64,000 nt of DNA from Erythrobacter insulae (GTDB lineage: Bacteria; Pseudomonadota; Alphaproteobacteria; Sphingomonadales; Sphingomonadaceae): positions 1,492,501-1,556,500 of the forward strand of contig NZ_VHJK01000001.1 in assembly GCF_007004095.1 (NCBI RefSeq). Reading direction: 5' to 3'. Both the position numbers and the translations under genes were made by a program. This document shows positions 1-6,252 of this stretch, in pieces. The stretch's first letter is position 1, and each line of letters starts with the position of its first letter. The notes beneath the pieces were generated by a model that saw nothing but the letters and a program-made list of their open reading frames with translations, was not told where the DNA came from and searched no databases.

Positions 1-713
1 CGGCGCGCTTTATCGAAAATTTGCGCCGGGATATCGGGCTTTATGGTGTGCGGTCCGCGGTGCCATTTGCAATCCGCAAGCTGATGTTGTCTGCTCTGCC
101 AGACCCGTTGCGGCTGGCTCTTAAACGGTCACGCCCGGATTACGCTCGATTACACTATGAAGGCGTCCAATTCCTGAACGATGAATTCGCAGAGAAAGTT
201 CGTGCTGCGAAACGGCGATATCTCGCGGATCTTCCTGTCGATGAAGTGCACACTGCCAATGTCAGGACGCTCGATTCCCTGCCGAACCAGCGGGCTTTTG
301 ATTTGATGTATCGCCAGCGGGCCAACATCGGATTGGAAGGGCGCAGCCCTATGTTCACGCGGCAATTCATCGAGTTTTGTTGCTCTGTGCCGGAAGATCT
401 CAAATTTCGCGGTGGGCGGACCAAGTGGCTGCATAGGGAGGCTATGCGCGGATTGATGCCCGACTGCGTGACAGACCGGGAAGACAAAGCGAGCTTTCCC
501 GAGCGAAAGCACGATGCGTCCATACGATCCCTATGCGAGAAAGCAGCGGGTGAAGAGCTCGCCCCCATAATAGATGCCAAACGGTTCACCGCATTCTGCG
601 CTCTGCGCGAGGGTGAAAACATTGACGATTCATGGGGTCGGCCGTATTGGGGAGCCTATTCGGTAGCGCAATTCTTAAAGAATATTTCGTACATTCCGAC
701 CACCAAAGGCTGA
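1..713 (+). CDS. Asparagine-synthetase-like lasso cyclase (C protein), C-terminal part, cut by left edge
   Basis: The reading frame is open from the first base, so this is the C-terminal ~237 residues of a larger protein. The segment YRQRANIGLEGRSPMFTRQF followed by K-W-L-H-R-E and EDKASFPERKH matches the C-terminal synthetase domain of asparagine synthase (R..P..D..F, then K..LR.A). In lasso peptide clusters the C protein activates the ring-closing Asp/Glu with ATP and forms the macrolactam with Gly1. The stop overlaps the start of the precursor gene (TGATG), so the two are translationally coupled. The N-terminal part and PP-loop lie outside the window. Lasso assignment rests on the neighbours; by itself it is only asparagine-synthase-like. 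Confidence 0.85.
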   Translation, partial: ARFIENLRRDIGLYGVRSAVPFAIRKLMLSALPDPLRLALKRSRPDYARLHYEGVQFLNDEFAEKVRAAKRRYLADLPVDEVHTANVRTLDSLPNQRAFDLMYRQRANIGLEGRSPMFTRQFIEFCCSVPEDLKFRGGRTKWLHREAMRGLMPDCVTDREDKASFPERKHDASIRSLCEKAAGEELAPIIDAKRFTAFCALREGENIDDSWGRPYWGAYSVAQFLKNISYIPTTKG

Positions 714-853
714 TGATCTTGCAAAAGAAAACAACTTACGCTTCACCAAAGCTGACAGATTATGGCTCCGTTCGCAATTTGACCGGCGGCAGCGTTGGCG
801 GGACAAATGATTCCGGCGGAAGTCTGGATGGCGGCAAATCTACAATGATGTGA
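713..853 (+). CDS. Lasso-peptide-type RiPP precursor, 46 residues
   Basis: Starts at the ATG that overlaps the stop of the cyclase gene (TGATG, 711-715), with a weak AAAGG about 5 bases upstream. An in-frame upstream start at 632 would overlap the cyclase and is less likely. The N-terminal part carries the lasso leader pattern Y-x2-P-x-L-x3-G: Y9, P12, L14, G18, then V20-R-N-L-T24. Thr24 fits the conserved penultimate leader Thr, giving a leader of residues 1-25 and a 21-residue core from Gly26, beginning GSVGGTNDSGG. Asp33 would then be core position 8, a usual ring-closing position (8-membered G1-D8 ring). The tail has Lys42 and ends STMM, with no aromatic residue. Leader, length and neighbours are seen; cleavage site and ring are inferred. 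Confidence 0.8.
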   Translation: MILQKKTTYASPKLTDYGSVRNLTGGSVGGTNDSGGSLDGGKSTMM

Positions 854-899
854 GTGGATCTTTCAGGTTCGCTATTACTGCCACCGCAGAGGGCTTAGT

Positions 900-924
900 C
901 ATTGAAATTAAGTGATTTTCAATG
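900..924 (+). promoter_or_regulatory. Hairpin burying the start codon of the methyltransferase gene
   Basis: CATTGAAA (900-907) and TTTCAATG (917-924) form a perfect 8-bp stem with a 9-base loop. The 3' arm contains the ATG (922-924) of the next gene, which also lacks a good ribosome binding site. This could lower translation of the enzyme relative to the precursor upstream. Functional role is inferred. Confidence 0.4.
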
Positions 925-2052
925 GTAGGCTATCTTTCGGAACATATTCAATATCTCCGCCTGCCGCACCGCAGCGATCTGTATCGCGCGGCCATATCGC
1001 GCTCCCTCCCAGTTGGCAGCACGGTCGCAGATCTCGGCTGCGGCGTGGGTGTTTTAGGCATCTTTTGTCTTGAGGCTGGTGCAGCGCATGTGTGGGGCAT
1101 CGACAGCAGCGACGCGATCCATCTTGCAAAAGAGACCGTTCGCAAAGCCGGCCTAAGCGAGCGCTATACCTGCGTCGCGGATACAACATTTTACACAGAC
1201 CTCCATGAACCGGTCGATGCGCTGATCTGCGATCATATCGGATATTTCGGCATTGATTACGGCATCGTTGATATGATGCGTGACGCCGCCAGCCGGATGC
1301 TGAAGCCGGGCGGTGTTTTGATGCCAGACCGGATCCGGTTGCACCTCGCAGGGGTGTCATCTGACACGTGTTTGGACGAGGCCTCTGCTTGGTCCAAAGA
1401 CGGCATTCCTGATCCTTTTCACTGGATCGATGAGCAGGCGAGAAATTCCAAATACGCGCACGATTTTGCGGCGGAGGAATTGTGCAGCGATAGCTTCGAA
1501 TTGGGCGAGATAGAGTTGAGTGATGCCGTATCGGATTACTTCTCTTTCACAGCTGAGCTGCTCGCGGCACGCGCTTGCCGATTTGATGGCTTGGCAGGAT
1601 GGTTTAGCGCCCATCTCGGCGGCGGCGTGTGGATGACGAACTCACCATTAGATGCGCAAAGCATAAAACGATCGCAGGCATTCTTTCCAGTTACAGAGCC
1701 ATTCCAGGTCGAACAAGGCGACCGGATAGGCATCGCTTTTCGGGCGCGATCTGACGGGCAATTTCTTGCCTGGAATGTTACGCCTCCCGGCGGCGCGCCG
1801 GTTCAAAAACAGTCGACTTGGGCAAATGCGGCCCTTGCGAAACGTGATCTGACATCTGCCGGGAACGCACCGATTGAGCTTAGCGAGAAAGGCACCGCAT
1901 TTGCCTATATCGTGTCGCTGGTCGACGGTCAGCGCACAGCTGCGGAAATAGAGGCAGAGGTCATGCGGGACCGGCCAGATCTGATGCCAAGCGATCAGGC
2001 GACGCGGGATTTTGTTCGCAGCGTCCTAAGGCGTTATGCGGTTCATGACTAA
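922..2052 (+). CDS. PRMT-fold SAM methyltransferase with C-terminal PqqD-like domain
   Basis: 376 residues. SAM-binding motif I VADLGCGVG is at 35-43 with the acidic motif II residue Asp61. The segment CDHIGYFGIDYG (103-114) followed by MLKPGGVLMPDR (126-137) has the layout of protein arginine methyltransferases, but the two glutamates of the PRMT double-E loop (S-E-x-M-G-Y ... E) are not conserved, so arginine is a doubtful substrate. A beta-barrel-like region follows. The last ~65 residues (I-E-L-S-E-K-G-T-A-F ... VDGQRTAAEI ... F-V-R-S-V-L) look like a PqqD/RRE domain, which would bind the precursor leader. The gene sits between the precursor and kinase genes, so a RiPP tailoring role is likely. 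Target residue unknown. Confidence 0.72.
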   Translation: MVGYLSEHIQYLRLPHRSDLYRAAISRSLPVGSTVADLGCGVGVLGIFCLEAGAAHVWGIDSSDAIHLAKETVRKAGLSERYTCVADTTFYTDLHEPVDALICDHIGYFGIDYGIVDMMRDAASRMLKPGGVLMPDRIRLHLAGVSSDTCLDEASAWSKDGIPDPFHWIDEQARNSKYAHDFAAEELCSDSFELGEIELSDAVSDYFSFTAELLAARACRFDGLAGWFSAHLGGGVWMTNSPLDAQSIKRSQAFFPVTEPFQVEQGDRIGIAFRARSDGQFLAWNVTPPGGAPVQKQSTWANAALAKRDLTSAGNAPIELSEKGTAFAYIVSLVDGQRTAAEIEAEVMRDRPDLMPSDQATRDFVRSVLRRYAVHD

Positions 2053-2905
2053 TCTGAAAGTCTGCTCCCCCAGACCTCAGGCTGCGCTTGGGACTGCTGC
2101 CTATGACAGGTGGCTGTCTCCGGATCATGAATGTCTGTGTGAGTTCCACCGGGAAGCCTCAGGGTTTTTGCTGCGCTTCCCCGGAGAAGCTGATTTTCTG
2201 ATCGATAACGCTTTGACCACGGCCGTGGCTTGGCCGGTGCCGGACGCGCAAAGAGGCATCGAGCGCAGGCTGTTTGAAAATTCGATCCAGCCGCTCTTGG
2301 GAAATCACGCTGGTGGCCTGTTTCTTCATGGCAGCGGGGTTCGCACCGATTTCGGCGCAGCTGTGATGCTGGGCAATTCACGCAGCGGCAAAACGACGCT
2401 TGCGGGCTTTCTTGCCAAACACGGCAATCCGTACATGACTGAAGACGTCGTCGATCTTGCCCAGAGCGGAGATGAATTCCGGCTGCGATCCAAAGCCTCT
2501 GCGCTCCGCCTGTTCAGGGATAGCGCCGAACACTTGCTGGGGGAAACCATTGAGATTTCGGTCGAGGGCGGCAAGCAACCTTTGAAAGCAACCGAAGGTC
2601 TGCCGTTTTCAAGCGGTTCGCAGCGTGTATCAGCCATTTTTTTGCTCGGCGATGATCATGGCGCTGAGATTTCGGTCCATCGATTACGATCCGCTGCTGC
2701 TTTGCCAGCCTTGATGCCTCATGCTTTTATTCTTGATGTTGAGGATCGGCCAAGGCTCCGCGGGCATTTTGATCGGCTCGCGGATCTGGCTGACAGAGTG
2801 CCGGTATATACCCTCGATTACCCCCGCGAATATTCGGCTTTGCCGCAGGTTCGGGCTGCGATATTGGAAGCGTTAGAAGGGATGTCTGCCGATGCAACTG
2901 AATGA
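2036..2905 (+). CDS. HPr-kinase-like P-loop protein, candidate lasso peptide kinase
   Basis: 289 residues, overlapping the end of the methyltransferase gene. The Walker A motif GNSRSGKTT is at 113-121, and MTEDVVDL at 134-141 matches the acidic motif after the P-loop of HPr kinase (HprK) C-terminal domains. The N-terminal HprK domain is absent, as in HprK-like proteins of RiPP loci. Homologues in paeninodin- and syanodin-type lasso clusters phosphorylate a Ser near the precursor C-terminus; here the tail offers Ser43 and Thr44. An alternative start is the ATG at 2045; the TAAGG at 2027-2031 lies close to the first one. The kinase role is inferred from family and context. Confidence 0.75.
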   Translation: MRFMTNLKVCSPRPQAALGTAAYDRWLSPDHECLCEFHREASGFLLRFPGEADFLIDNALTTAVAWPVPDAQRGIERRLFENSIQPLLGNHAGGLFLHGSGVRTDFGAAVMLGNSRSGKTTLAGFLAKHGNPYMTEDVVDLAQSGDEFRLRSKASALRLFRDSAEHLLGETIEISVEGGKQPLKATEGLPFSSGSQRVSAIFLLGDDHGAEISVHRLRSAAALPALMPHAFILDVEDRPRLRGHFDRLADLADRVPVYTLDYPREYSALPQVRAAILEALEGMSADATE

Positions 2906-3173
2906 CCGATTTGCCGCTTCAGATGATGTGGTCGCCAAACAGGTTGGCGGTGAGACTGTGTTGCTCGATTTGGCGAGCGGCCAATATTTTGGCCTTGATC
3001 TGGTTGGTGGGCGCATTTGGGAATTGTTTGGCGAGGCATCGCAAAGCCTATCAAGCCTGTCCGACGCCATCGAAGCAGAATTTGACGCGCCGCGCAGTGT
3101 TATCGAAACAGACATCCGCGCGCTGCTGGTTGATCTGAAAGACCGAGAATTGATCGCGCCGCAGCCGGAGTGA
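2892..3173 (+). CDS. PqqD-family RRE protein (lasso B1)
   Basis: 93 residues with the PqqD pattern: V-L-L-D-L-x-S-G-Q-Y-F-G-L-D near residues 24-37, then G-G-R-I-W-E-L-F, and a helical C-terminal part with D-x-E-x3-D-I-R-A-L-L-V-D-L. PqqD-like domains (RiPP recognition elements) bind the leader of the precursor and bring it to the B2 protease and the tailoring enzymes. It overlaps the end of the kinase gene by 14 bases and has AGAAGGG about 10 bases upstream of the ATG. It is the last gene of the rightward cluster and converges on the ABC exporter gene. Confidence 0.85.
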   Translation: MQLNDRFAASDDVVAKQVGGETVLLDLASGQYFGLDLVGGRIWELFGEASQSLSSLSDAIEAEFDAPRSVIETDIRALLVDLKDRELIAPQPE

Positions 3174-3188
3174 AACGTCAACCGCCGA

Positions 3189-4856
3189 TCACAGCGCTCC
3201 GGTTACATCGGTCACAGCATCCGCCGAAACCTTGAGCACTCTGTCAGCCAGTGCGAGGCTGGCTGGCCGGTGGGTTATGATGATGACCGTGCGGCCTTTC
3301 AGAGCCTCGATACAATCTTCGACAAATGCGGCTTCGCTATCGAGATCGTACATGCTGGTCGCTTCATCCAGAATGTAGATTGGCGGATCGCGGTATAGCG
3401 CACGGGCCAGCGCCACGCGCTGGCCTTGGCCGCCTGACAAACGGATGCCGTGATCGCCGATTTCTGTTTCCAATCCTTGTGGCAAATCGGAAATGAAGCG
3501 TTCTGCCTGGGCAAGCCTGACCGCGCGAGCGATGGCCGCTGCGCTGTTGTCGTCAGAATGCCGGTCTTGCCCGAATGCGATATTGTCAGCAATTGTACCG
3601 TTAAACAGCAGTGCACGTTGCGGGACATAGCCAAATTGGCGACGCAGGCTTTGAATTTGCAGCGCGCCGATATCTTGCCCGTCGAGCAGAATCTGGCCGC
3701 TGTCAGGTGCATAAAATCGCAACAGCAATTTCACGAGGGTTGATTTGCCAACGCCGTTATCGCCGGTAAGTGCGATGATCTCACCCGGTTGAATTTGCAG
3801 ATCCAGACCGCAGAGCACGGCGGGGCGCCCTGGATATGTGAAATGGACGTTTTGCAATTCAATCCGCCCGTTTGCCCGATCCGGCGTGATGCCTGAATTG
3901 TGGCCGCTTTCCAATTCCATTTCGAGCACAGATTGGAGCCTGGAAAGAGTGCCGCGCGCTGTTTGGTATCGCCCGTAAATATCGGCCAATCCGCCCACTG
4001 GACGCGTGAGCAATGCGGCGTAAAGCAAGAACGCAAACAATTCGCCGGGGCTTTGTTCCCCGCTCGCAAGCGCGGTGCTGCCAAGAGCAAGCACGGCGAT
4101 AGCGGCCAATGCAGAAATCAGTGCGACGATGGGGGATATGAACGCTCTGATCCGGGCTTTTCGAAAGGCGATCGCCTGCGATGTCAGAACAGTTTTCGAA
4201 TACCGTGTCCGATGATCTTCTTCGCTTGCGAATGCCTTGATCGCGGGGATCATCGCAAGGTCGCTTTCCGCAGTCGCAAAAACAGCGACTTCGGCTCTGC
4301 GGGCTTGGCGTGCAAGGATACGCAGGCGGCGGCCGACAAGCTTCATGGCAACGAAAAACAACGGGAGGAGAATAGGGATCAAGACTGCGACGTAAGGGTT
4401 AATCAGGAACAATACGATTACAGCACCGCCCGCCGTCAGCAGCATCGACGGTGCGGTAGCGAGTGTCGTTGCCAAAAAGCTGCTGAGATTGCCGACCTCG
4501 TATGTCATCAGCGCGAGCAGATCGCCGCTGCTGCGCTTTTCATGAAAAGACATCGGCATGAGACTGACGTGATCGTAGATTTCTTGGCGCAAGCCGGTGA
4601 GGATTCTGAGCGACGCCGCAGATGACGCGATTGTTGAGAGGATGCTTAATCCTGTCATGGCGACCAGCGCGAGGATCAGCAGATAAAGGGTTTGATCTAG
4701 GCTTTGGCTTTGGCCCGTCACCATGCCGCCGATCACCTGTCCAGCGAGCCAAGGAATTGCCAAGGTCGCAAGTGAGCCGAGCAGAGTGAGGCCGCTGATC
4801 AATAGCAATTCGGCGCGAAACTGCTTTGCGCGCTGCCAGAGGAACTCAAATGTCAT
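3189..4856 (-). CDS. ABC exporter with fused membrane and ATPase domains (lasso D-like)
   Basis: 555 residues. The first ~310 hold six predicted membrane helices of an ABC type I exporter. The ATPase domain has Walker A GDNGVGKST (around residue 365), the Q-loop GYVPQ, signature LSGGQ, Walker B IYILDEATS and the H-loop THRPAS. It would form a homodimer in the inner membrane. In lasso clusters such a transporter exports the mature peptide and gives immunity. Its start overlaps the stop of the nucleotidyltransferase gene (ATGA), so the two are one operon converging on the biosynthetic genes. A general lipid or drug exporter is possible, but the location favours peptide export. Confidence 0.82.
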   Translation of the reverse strand: MTFEFLWQRAKQFRAELLLISGLTLLGSLATLAIPWLAGQVIGGMVTGQSQSLDQTLYLLILALVAMTGLSILSTIASSAASLRILTGLRQEIYDHVSLMPMSFHEKRSSGDLLALMTYEVGNLSSFLATTLATAPSMLLTAGGAVIVLFLINPYVAVLIPILLPLFFVAMKLVGRRLRILARQARRAEVAVFATAESDLAMIPAIKAFASEEDHRTRYSKTVLTSQAIAFRKARIRAFISPIVALISALAAIAVLALGSTALASGEQSPGELFAFLLYAALLTRPVGGLADIYGRYQTARGTLSRLQSVLEMELESGHNSGITPDRANGRIELQNVHFTYPGRPAVLCGLDLQIQPGEIIALTGDNGVGKSTLVKLLLRFYAPDSGQILLDGQDIGALQIQSLRRQFGYVPQRALLFNGTIADNIAFGQDRHSDDNSAAAIARAVRLAQAERFISDLPQGLETEIGDHGIRLSGGQGQRVALARALYRDPPIYILDEATSMYDLDSEAAFVEDCIEALKGRTVIIITHRPASLALADRVLKVSADAVTDVTGAL

Positions 4857-6172
4857 CGTGATCGGCCCAGCAACATTCTTGCCGCTGCGTCAAGCATTCT
4901 GCGCAAGTGCAGGGCGGCCAAAGGCAGGTGATCACTTTCGGGATAGCGCTCGCCCATAAATGTCCGGTCGGGCAGCACCCGCTCTGTGATCAGTTTCAGC
5001 TTTGCCGAAAATGTCGGCGCAGCGGCAAAGTCCATTTTGAACCGGTGCACAGTGGAAGTGGAGGACGCGTAATAAATGCAAATGATCCCGTCCTCGTTGG
5101 CGGCTTCCTCCAGCTTGCCAAGGCCGTCCGGCGGGCATTGGGTGCCTAGCATCTGACTGGCGAAATCCAGTGCCGAGGCAACCGCTTTTGCCGCCCCCCA
5201 ATTTTTGGAAATGCGGGCCAGATTTTGCCAGTCCTGCGGCGTGAAGTCTGCGGCCAGATAATGGAGATCAAGCGCCCAGATCAACCTGTCGCCGTCCAAC
5301 ACCTTGCCGTCTTCGATATGATAGCCGAACGCCTCGTGCCCGGTCCGATTGATGCAGATTTGAATAAAGCTGTCGATGGGCCCTGTGCCCACAGCTTGCG
5401 AGGATAATCGCGGCAAGGGCATCGTCCGTTGGCGTGGGTGATCGCGCCCGATGGCTGCTGCAATCGCCATGCTGGAGCTGGCATCCCAATGCAGATCGAC
5501 TTGATGCGTGAAGCCTGATCGCGAATGACAGACCCACGTTTCCTGCAAGGCGCGCTTGTCGCGGCCAGATTGAAAGCCGCATTGGAGGAAGATACGCCGC
5601 ACATTTTCGCGGCTCATGCTCTCAATCAACAAGTCGGTATCGCCGCGTCGGCGCAAGGCTGGATCTTGATACACAGAATAGGCGAGCGCGGTGCCCTTCA
5701 TCATGATTGTCTGAAAGTCTGCGTGATGAAGACGATCAATAAGCCGTGTGATTGCGGCCGCATGGTCGCTTTCCCAAATCGCCTGCAAGCGTGCCTGATC
5801 GGACAAGGCCTTTGAAAGAGGTGAGGGCCAATTGGGTGCCTTTGTGTCGCTTTGTGCGATCAACAGCGCGATGCCGTGATATTCCAGCCGCTGTGTCGCA
5901 AGGGCGATGACATCCGCACCGGTCAGATCATCAGGCCACGCGGGGATAGGCGCACCTGCCAATATACCGCGCACACATAGCGCGAAATAGCGATCAATGG
6001 CTTCGGCCTGTGTCATAATACGATACGCTGGTTTGATACCCCGAAGCTGCGGACGCAAGTATGCGGGATTGAGCCGATTTTGGCCAGTGCCCGCATCAAC
6101 AAAACGGCTATCGCGGGCTTTTTGGTCACAAGGAGCCTGCGGGCGGTGTCTAGGCGCGGTCATGATAGCCAT
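4853..6172 (-). CDS. Nucleotidyltransferase family protein (NTP_transf_5 type), lasso cluster accessory
   Basis: About 439 residues. The central motif IMMKGTALAYSVYQDPALRR then G-D-T-D-L-L-I is the signature of the uncharacterised nucleotidyltransferase family PF14907 (G..L.....RR.GDTDLL, with two metal-binding Asp). The family recurs in lasso clusters that carry an HprK-like kinase, where its role is not settled. The start at 6172 is preferred because AAGGGG lies just upstream; ATGs at 6205 and 6163 are alternatives. It is co-transcribed with the ABC exporter (ATGA overlap) and diverges from rfbD. Confidence 0.72.
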   Translation of the reverse strand: MAIMTAPRHRPQAPCDQKARDSRFVDAGTGQNRLNPAYLRPQLRGIKPAYRIMTQAEAIDRYFALCVRGILAGAPIPAWPDDLTGADVIALATQRLEYHGIALLIAQSDTKAPNWPSPLSKALSDQARLQAIWESDHAAAITRLIDRLHHADFQTIMMKGTALAYSVYQDPALRRRGDTDLLIESMSRENVRRIFLQCGFQSGRDKRALQETWVCHSRSGFTHQVDLHWDASSSMAIAAAIGRDHPRQRTMPLPRLSSQAVGTGPIDSFIQICINRTGHEAFGYHIEDGKVLDGDRLIWALDLHYLAADFTPQDWQNLARISKNWGAAKAVASALDFASQMLGTQCPPDGLGKLEEAANEDGIICIYYASSTSTVHRFKMDFAAAPTFSAKLKLITERVLPDRTFMGERYPESDHLPLAALHLRRMLDAAARMLLGRSR

Positions 6173-6252
6173 TGACCCCTTAAGACGGTGCTGCAATGCC
6201 ATCATCCTGTCAGCGGATTGGCTCTGACGCTGACCGGTGTGGTGGAGTGTTC

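Follow-up and report, generated by a model that had tools for sequence, protein, structure and literature searches.

What is the substrate of a methyltransferase with the fold of the protein arginine methyltransferases (PRMTs) when its gene lies in a lasso-peptide cluster, directly behind the precursor gene? The question is raised by a 64,000-nucleotide stretch of Erythrobacter insulae DNA (NCBI RefSeq assembly GCF_007004095.1, contig NZ_VHJK01000001.1; G000:C1:1492501-1556500 in our numbering), called the window below, whose first 6.2 kb run from the 3' end of a lasso cyclase gene (C) through a gene of the NTP_transf_5 family (N). Between these lie the genes for the precursor (A), the methyltransferase (MT), a kinase (K), a leader-binding protein (B1) and an exporter (D). 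The reading that we favour, though only tentatively and at somewhat less than an even chance, is that MT is a peptidyl-methionine S-methyltransferase that acts on methionine in the tail of the lasso precursor. The features that this reading concerns are the following.

713..853, + strand: precursor A, 46 aa (lasso_leader_L3 23.1 bits, cut-off 19)
922..2052, + strand: PRMT-fold methyltransferase MT, 376 aa (profile, Foldseek and VIA matches to PRMTs)
1228..1260, + strand: MT active-site segment C103-D-H-I-G-Y-F-G-I-D-Y113, in place of the PRMT double-Glu loop
1864..2049, + strand: C-terminal three-helix, winged-helix-like domain of MT, its last 60 residues (helices 322-332, 340-350 and 358-372 in the model)

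Sister clusters were found by kinase searches. Of the family's 397 genomes, 70 had a match at E 1e-5, and searches within three genera matched 39/114 and 20/40 at 1e-20 and 13/195 at 1e-30. From the 70 genomes the close ones were fetched together with eight weaker ones (L150-L157; our loci are numbered with L), the latter not being used. The precursor search covered 102 loci, leaving aside L031 and L032 with their distant MT, and in seven of them (L069, L160, L163 and L202-L205) no precursor reached 15 bits. A later search gave 11 loci, of which four were new and entered the tree and seven repeated cores already included. Our counts leave out an orphan precursor (L145, see below) and duplicate pairs of leader and core, and the trees, which are quick searches without bootstrap, leave out L038, a locus that has no kinase.

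Methionine follows the methyltransferase closely in this collection. It occurs somewhere in 51 of 52 distinct cores from clusters with MT versus two of 23 from clusters without, in a count that is not corrected for relatedness and in which the core of L064 kept its fused S74 part (this core has methionine either way, and the extra part inflates some other letters on the MT side). Counting only the tail of the core, 50 of 51 clusters with MT have methionine versus one of 25 without (76 clusters, L197 counted as without), and in 48 of 50 MT-associated cores the last methionine lies no more than five residues from the C-terminal end. Tail arginine shows the opposite relation, being present in 11 of the 51 clusters with MT versus 22 of the 25 without.

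Relatedness was addressed on a tree of the concatenated C, K and B1 proteins of 76 clusters, along which the MT state changes eight times, or nine if L197 is coded as lacking MT. With L197 coded in that way, tail methionine changes in the same direction as MT in 5.4 of six independent pairs and in the opposite direction in 0.1, while among the other 19 residues the highest value is 1.4 of six; no amino acid except methionine tracks MT on this tree. We regard this support for the association as suggestive. The coding of L197 refers to a gene in which residues 100-193 of the window MT, including the CDH..DYG catalytic segment, are missing in frame; the locus has no N, and its core, GSGGTRGDGQLGQTRL, is without methionine. 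Two further loci, whose contigs have the same length (1,527,697) and which therefore appear to belong to one genome, are also informative. In L038 (6703-8122) a precursor and an MT form a pair, the core ending in GMTMNP, among neighbours that, judged by eye, resemble housekeeping genes, and no kinase, B or C genes were found in its 15 kb; L172 (G497:C2) is an MT-less cluster whose core, GSGTMFRDGAVNNSRF, has no methionine in its tail.

The fold of MT is clearly that of the PRMTs, a point on which an earlier note on this DNA, made from the sequence alone, was right. A profile of 31 MT members matched PDB entries 6cu3 (E 9.4e-38) and 8dur (PRMT1, 1e-37), the AlphaFold model (mean pLDDT 89.8) matched PRMT6 and PRMT3 in Foldseek (E 7e-29), and VIA gave Z 32-33 to CARM1, PRMT6 and PRMT1 over some 298 residues. 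The double-Glu loop and the THW loop are the catalytic motifs of arginine methyltransferases, and both are replaced in MT. The MT profile segment CDHVGYFGFDY aligns with SEWMGYFLLYE of the PRMT entries, placing Asp104 at the first catalytic glutamate and Tyr113, which adjoins Asp112, at the second, and D104, H105, G107, G110, D112 and Y113 are invariant in the 31 aligned members. THW aligns with S-I-(K)-R of MT (I248, R250); an "STW" near residue 298 was rejected as the THW loop, since the profile alignment places THW elsewhere, at S-I-K-R. Arginine methylation by MT is unlikely, because the two motifs are replaced and most cores that accompany MT have no arginine. That MT is a genuine arginine methyltransferase with the peptide as its substrate, in favour of which fold and homology would speak, is thus a reading that we rejected and consider hardly credible, the window core itself being without arginine and tail arginine being found mainly where MT is absent.

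The extra C-terminal domain of MT is more difficult to name. The earlier note had described MT as a methyltransferase-PqqD protein, and an additional, winged-helix-like domain is indeed there, but the PqqD label is weaker. With the threshold set at E 1, nine of 15 members matched the NCBIfam PqqD model weakly (best E 0.0031), Pfam gave PqqD for one of 15 and the winged helix PKMT_2nd for five of 15 (best E 0.028), and hhalign of the domain profile against B1 returned a probability of 9%. A confident PqqD label was not reached; the domain is possibly a PqqD-like winged helix, that is, an RRE. The MT frame stops before this domain in five of 40 relatives (L046, L049, L050, L056 and L069), and in L059 and L070 MT is split over two frames, which reflects sequencing error or decay.

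A second set of precursors bears on which end of the peptide MT could reach. In 20 distinct precursors, an orphan in the window genome included, the lasso core is followed directly by a domain of 73-80 aa that starts with (S/C)DxxxK; the others lie in L026, L027, L044, L053, L054, L056, L062, L063, L064, L067, L070, L072, L149, L193, L194, L196, L198, L209 and L212. The orphan is the following feature.

G000:C1:1691281-1691673 (L145 8282-8674): orphan S74-fused precursor, some 198 kb away from the cluster in the window, with core GSSGPGNDGFGGFSGLTGGGMDMGM before SDRRLK

The 17 kb examined around the orphan showed no B, C or K genes, and its processing therefore probably takes place in trans, through the enzymes of the window cluster; the window genome thus holds both precursor architectures, a plain one in the cluster and an S74-fused one as orphan. 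The Pfam family Peptidase_S74 (PF13884, cut-off 22) matches all nine aligned members of our alignment A4 at E up to 0.1, with single scores of 37.7 bits in L044, 33.8 in L027, 31.2 in L070, 29.5 in L026, 24.9 in L053 and 31.1 in the orphan. For the methionine tally the start of the domain was located by a pattern that already requires D(+1) and K(+5), so that the unbiased check is A4, where the Lys(+5) column is invariant and the first residue is Ser in eight of nine and Cys in one. This Ser..Lys(+5) spacing agrees with S587/K592 of MyRF and S911/K916 of endoNF (PMC8326128; this and most other papers are cited from excerpts). The best three Foldseek matches of the S74 part were MyRF ICA chains (E 0.08-0.1), and VIA was modest, with Z 4.4 to 7dc3 (rmsd 2.2 over 59), 3.1 to 3gud and 2.8 to 3gw6, followed by kinases at 2.6. 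Although MyRF ICA and phage chaperone entries are thus the best structural matches, the S74 assignment draws more on Pfam and on the Ser..Lys spacing than on structure. The excerpts describe a long C-terminal helix of MyRF that drives the trimerisation needed for self-cleavage (PMC8326128), and the lasso S74 domains, at 73-80 aa, show no long C-terminal helix in the model. Members of Peptidase_S74, the phage tail-spike chaperone domain, are known to cleave themselves, and the fused precursors may do so too. All 15 fused cores in clusters with MT have methionine versus none of four in MT-less clusters, which indicates that methionine follows MT and not S74; the orphan, whose genome has an MT although none adjoins it, has methionine in its core. 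In L052 the exact position of the S74 Ser is taken by a stop codon while the S74 frame continues open downstream, an arrangement suggesting that loss of the S74 domain may give rise to short precursors like A in the window.

Combined with the gene content described below, these data lead us to propose the following course for the pathway, each step of which is conditional. B1, perhaps together with the C-terminal domain of MT, would bind the leader, and the kinase would phosphorylate the linear precursor at Ser2 or at another Ser/Thr close by, in the manner of BsfK at Ser3. MT would move a methyl group from S-adenosylmethionine (SAM) to the thioether of Met20 and/or Met21 of the linear precursor, and the resulting S-methylmethionine, a sulfonium, would give the peptide a fixed positive charge in the region where arginine is found in most MT-less sister cores. 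B2 would then cleave behind Thr(-2)-Gly(-1) to take off the leader, C would close Gly1 onto Asp8, N would act on the phosphate and D would export the product. Since tail arginine is inversely related to MT, the comparison suggests that what is kept in the tail may be a positive charge. The wider combination of a PRMT-fold peptidyl-methionine S-methyltransferase, a sulfonium in place of the arginine of the sisters, and self-cleaving S74 fusions that shield and then free the C-terminal end of the core is possible, though in our judgement doubtful.

Several observations weigh against S-methylation of the tail methionine. The association is a correlation, with only six independent pairs, on well-supported branches; if MT is coded simply as gene present, the agreement drops to 4.8 of six pairs, and the median p of a sign test is 0.0625 for tail methionine and 0.031 for any methionine with L197 recoded. 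L199 has tail methionine without MT, L172 and L176 have methionine in the ring without MT, and L050/L190, with an MT that has no C-terminal domain, have methionine only in the ring; domain loss does not explain L050, because L046, L049 and L056 are also without this domain and keep tail methionine. The core of L070 still has methionine while its MT is split over two frames, and on account of L070 and of the MTs without the C-terminal domain we slightly lowered our confidence. The core beside the distant MT of L032 (23% identity) has no methionine, L069 has an MT-like gene with no lasso genes in its 15 kb, and the window core retains a lysine. No thioether-methylating enzyme with the PRMT fold is known to us, and methionine could be needed for recognition rather than as acceptor.

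The role of a mere recognition element is the one that methionine would have if MT formed an ester at the C-terminal carboxylate, as happens with StspM and presumably with LasF in clusters of the lassomycin type. The closeness of the last methionine to the C-terminal end fits this explanation, the invariant His105 could be the general base, and the C-terminal methyl ester is the established lasso methylation (PMC9266682). However, 15 fused precursors from clusters with MT have the core C-terminal end covered by S74 unless it is first cleaved, and every core has a carboxylate, which leaves the near-perfect loss of methionine together with MT unexplained; moreover, in the excerpts, StspM is modelled on mitomycin-7-O-methyltransferase, while MT matches PRMTs (PMC9266682). 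We therefore consider carboxylate methylation unlikely. It is also rather unlikely, in our estimate, that MT methylates some other group (a Ser/Thr phosphate, the ring Asp, Asn or the backbone) and that the methionine-rich tail serves, for instance, to bind copper through MxM motifs. MxM or MM does occur in the tail of 34 of 52 MT-associated cores, and the kinase adjoins MT in most loci, a phosphate methyl ester being a product that would need both enzymes. Against this stand the fact that no residue besides methionine tracks MT, the MT-less sisters, which keep the kinase while methionine is lost (the sisters having been found by their kinase), and the MT-precursor pair of L038, with no kinase beside it. 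A methionine S-methyltransferase remains the reading that we prefer.

The rest of the cluster, which the start of the window cuts, comprises the following features.

window -2148 to -1783 (L003 8353-8718), beside B2: small protein X, by eye with a signal peptide or transmembrane segment (secreted or membrane-bound)
G000:C1:1490777-1491286 (window -1723 to -1214), - strand: B2 protease (Transglut_core3 70 bits, cut-off 26; NCBIfam lasso_biosyn_B2 63.7 bits, cut-off 33)
1..713 (frame from 3), + strand: 3' third of lasso cyclase C, Asn-synthetase type; full gene window -1173 to 713, 628 aa
2036..2905, + strand: HprK-like peptide kinase K (TIGR04352 E 8e-4, below cut-off)
2892..3173, + strand: B1 / RRE, PqqD-like leader-binding protein (PF05402 PqqD 59.7 bits, cut-off 23.4; NCBIfam lasso_PqqD_Bac 48.7 bits, below its cut-off of 80)
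3189..4856, - strand: ABC exporter D (ABC_membrane 145.5 bits, ABC_tran 119.1 bits)
4853..6205, - strand: NTP_transf_5 nucleotidyltransferase N (PF14907 88.8 bits, cut-off 31.2, residues 105-354)

By its gene content the order X-B2-C-A-MT-K-B1-D-N is a complete lasso-peptide cluster, with the window start falling inside it. The earlier note had read the window part as partial C, A, MT, kinase and B1 with a convergent exporter and NTP_transf_5, every one of which was found, and had proposed to look left of position 1 for the rest of C and for B2; both are there, B2 lying divergently 1.2 kb from that position, so that the B1, B2 and C genes by which a lasso cluster is recognised are all present. 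The note had counted the lack of a B2 gene among the findings that would refute it, and on this point its reading stands. The in-window piece of C (3-713) gives 61 bits to Asn_synthase and 47.7 bits, below cut-off, to the NCBIfam lasso cyclase model, and the whole protein 138.7 bits to Asn_synthase, 92.4 bits to GATase_7 and 254 bits to NCBIfam lass_lactam_cya (below its cut-off of 525). The true start of N may lie inside the ORF given, and a PsmN-like role is assumed for it. Another Transglut_core3 match, at G000:C1:1862358 and with an internal stop, was set aside, there being no other lasso gene in the surrounding 19 kb. Counts of promoters and terminators in the sequence were not above those in shuffles. 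Protein X is present in 18 of 41 loci with MT and in three of four MT-less sister loci checked. One may also consider that the cluster is decayed or that no lasso peptide is made, since kinase and cyclase fall below the NCBIfam cut-offs and no product is known; with all frames intact, with B2, C, B1 and D present and with leader and ring residues conserved, this is very unlikely, and the cluster is complete and probably functional.

Precursor A reads MILQKKTTYASPKLTDYGSVRNLTG / GSVGGTNDSGGSLDGGKSTMM, with the leader at 713-787 and the core at 788-850, and its ATG overlaps the stop of C. The leader has the form YxxPxL..GSVRNLTG with Y(-17), P(-14), L(-12) and T(-2), from which we predict a cut before GSVGG and a macrolactam ring between Gly1 and Asp8; the calculated mass of such a lasso peptide is 1895.80 Da. 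Within the family Thr(-2) is found in 76 of 76 leaders and an acidic residue at core positions 7-9 in 75 of 75, although the precursors were chosen with the leader model and the conserved leader letters are thus partly due to selection. The cores also have Ser or Thr at positions 2-5 in 75 of 75 cases (Ser at position 2 in 56), while only two of 75 end in Ser, the window core ending in Met. The kinase residues H98, G118-K119 (the P-loop), T121 and D137 are conserved in 72 of 72, and the window protein has E136 ahead of D137. BsfK phosphorylates core Ser3 of BsfA, aided by B1, according to the excerpts (PMC10368454), and the kinases of paeninodin and pseudomycoidin act on a C-terminal Ser (PMC9266682). 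Because Ser/Thr at positions 2-5 is universal in this family and a C-terminal Ser so rare, the kinase probably targets, like BsfK, a Ser/Thr near the N-terminus of the core, and phosphorylation of a C-terminal Ser was rejected. The earlier designation of the locus as paeninodin and syanodin type thus stands as regards the gene set of a kinase-bearing lasso cluster but not in the C-terminal phosphorylation that it implies. The MT-less kinase cluster L191 has two precursors, each with two cysteines in the core (GSAGRCHD...TCGG and GSAGNCTD...ICGPQ) and Cys at -1, a possible disulfide-bearing branch.

The position of MT between precursor and kinase had been called unusual, but MT is not a single case. 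A search with MT (METHYLTRANSFERASE) matched in 17 of the 397 genomes, nine of them closely (40-100% identity, the window's own included), and a scan of genome contigs gave at least 52 loci, at least 40 of which (L033-L072, 36-64% identity) are true relatives and the remaining 12 short weak matches; some of the 40 come from the same species as some of the nine close genomes. The relatives occur in Erythrobacter, Aurantiacibacter, Novosphingobium and kin, Burkholderiales, Competibacter/Contendobacter, Cyanobium, Methylocystaceae and others. Among the matches listed, the 41 MT loci formed by the window and the 40 relatives have a kinase in 39 (the others being L038 and L069), B1 in 38 and C in 35, usually in the order A-MT-K-B1 with the kinase mostly the next gene; L068 has other genes between MT and kinase. 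A second, distant lineage of PRMT-like MTs is seen in other kinase-bearing lasso clusters (L031, L032 and L202-L205), those of L031 and L032 sharing 23-24% identity with the window MT, and in L032, L204 and L205 the MT follows the kinase. The low-scoring cores of L202-L204 all have methionine, unlike that of L032, while L205 has no precursor and none was seen in L031.

Among described systems, the bsf cluster of Bradymonas sediminis (BsfA/BsfK/BsfB1/BsfB2/BsfN) resembles the window in its split B1/B2, kinase and nucleotidyltransferase, and resembles the family in a phosphorylated residue near the core start and the absence of a C-terminal Ser; it differs in having, in the excerpts, no methyltransferase among its seven genes and in Ile(-2), where the window has Thr(-2) (PMC10368454). 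The paeninodin and pseudomycoidin clusters and SyanA-SyanK of Sphingobium share the HprK-like kinase, and that of pseudomycoidin also a nucleotidyltransferase, PsmN, but there the C-terminal Ser is phosphorylated, and the excerpts name no PRMT-fold MT for them (PMC9266682, PMC8498205). The lassomycin and StspM carboxyl methyltransferases are likewise SAM methyltransferases in lasso clusters, StspM modelled on a mitomycin O-methyltransferase where the window MT has the PRMT fold in a kinase-type cluster (PMC9266682). PRMT1, PRMT6 and CARM1 share with MT the Rossmann domain and beta-barrel over residues 1-303 (Z ~32), whereas MT has the double-Glu and THW loops replaced, a C-terminal winged-helix domain and a bacterial context of ribosomally synthesized and post-translationally modified peptides (RiPPs). 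Longipeptin A is not a lasso peptide. Like the proposed product, however, it is a RiPP with a sulfonium methionine, for which the assignment of LopH, described as a possible new methyltransferase family, is only predicted (PMC11285071). For lasso peptides, two reviews taken together report C-terminal carboxyl methylation and PIMT-linked aspartimides, and in their excerpts no PRMT-fold MT is named (PMC9266682, PMC8498205); "PRMT" is absent from a review of RiPP methyltransferases (PMC11285071), and in the open-access literature we found nothing that links a lasso peptide to an arginine methyltransferase, a sulfonium, S74 or an intramolecular chaperone. The window cluster thus adds a new tailoring enzyme to the kinase-bearing type of lasso cluster.

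If MT does act on methionine, its product would be, as far as we know, the first sulfonium-bearing lasso peptide, and MT the first PRMT-fold enzyme that methylates a thioether. The S74 fusions raise the further question of whether a lasso core can be made with its C-terminal end under a folded domain and then be freed by autoproteolysis. If MT is indeed a methionine S-methyltransferase, a family of at least 40 loci would be available for studying S-methylation in RiPPs, where LopH is only a prediction (PMC11285071), and the sister clusters with and without MT are a ready-made natural experiment.

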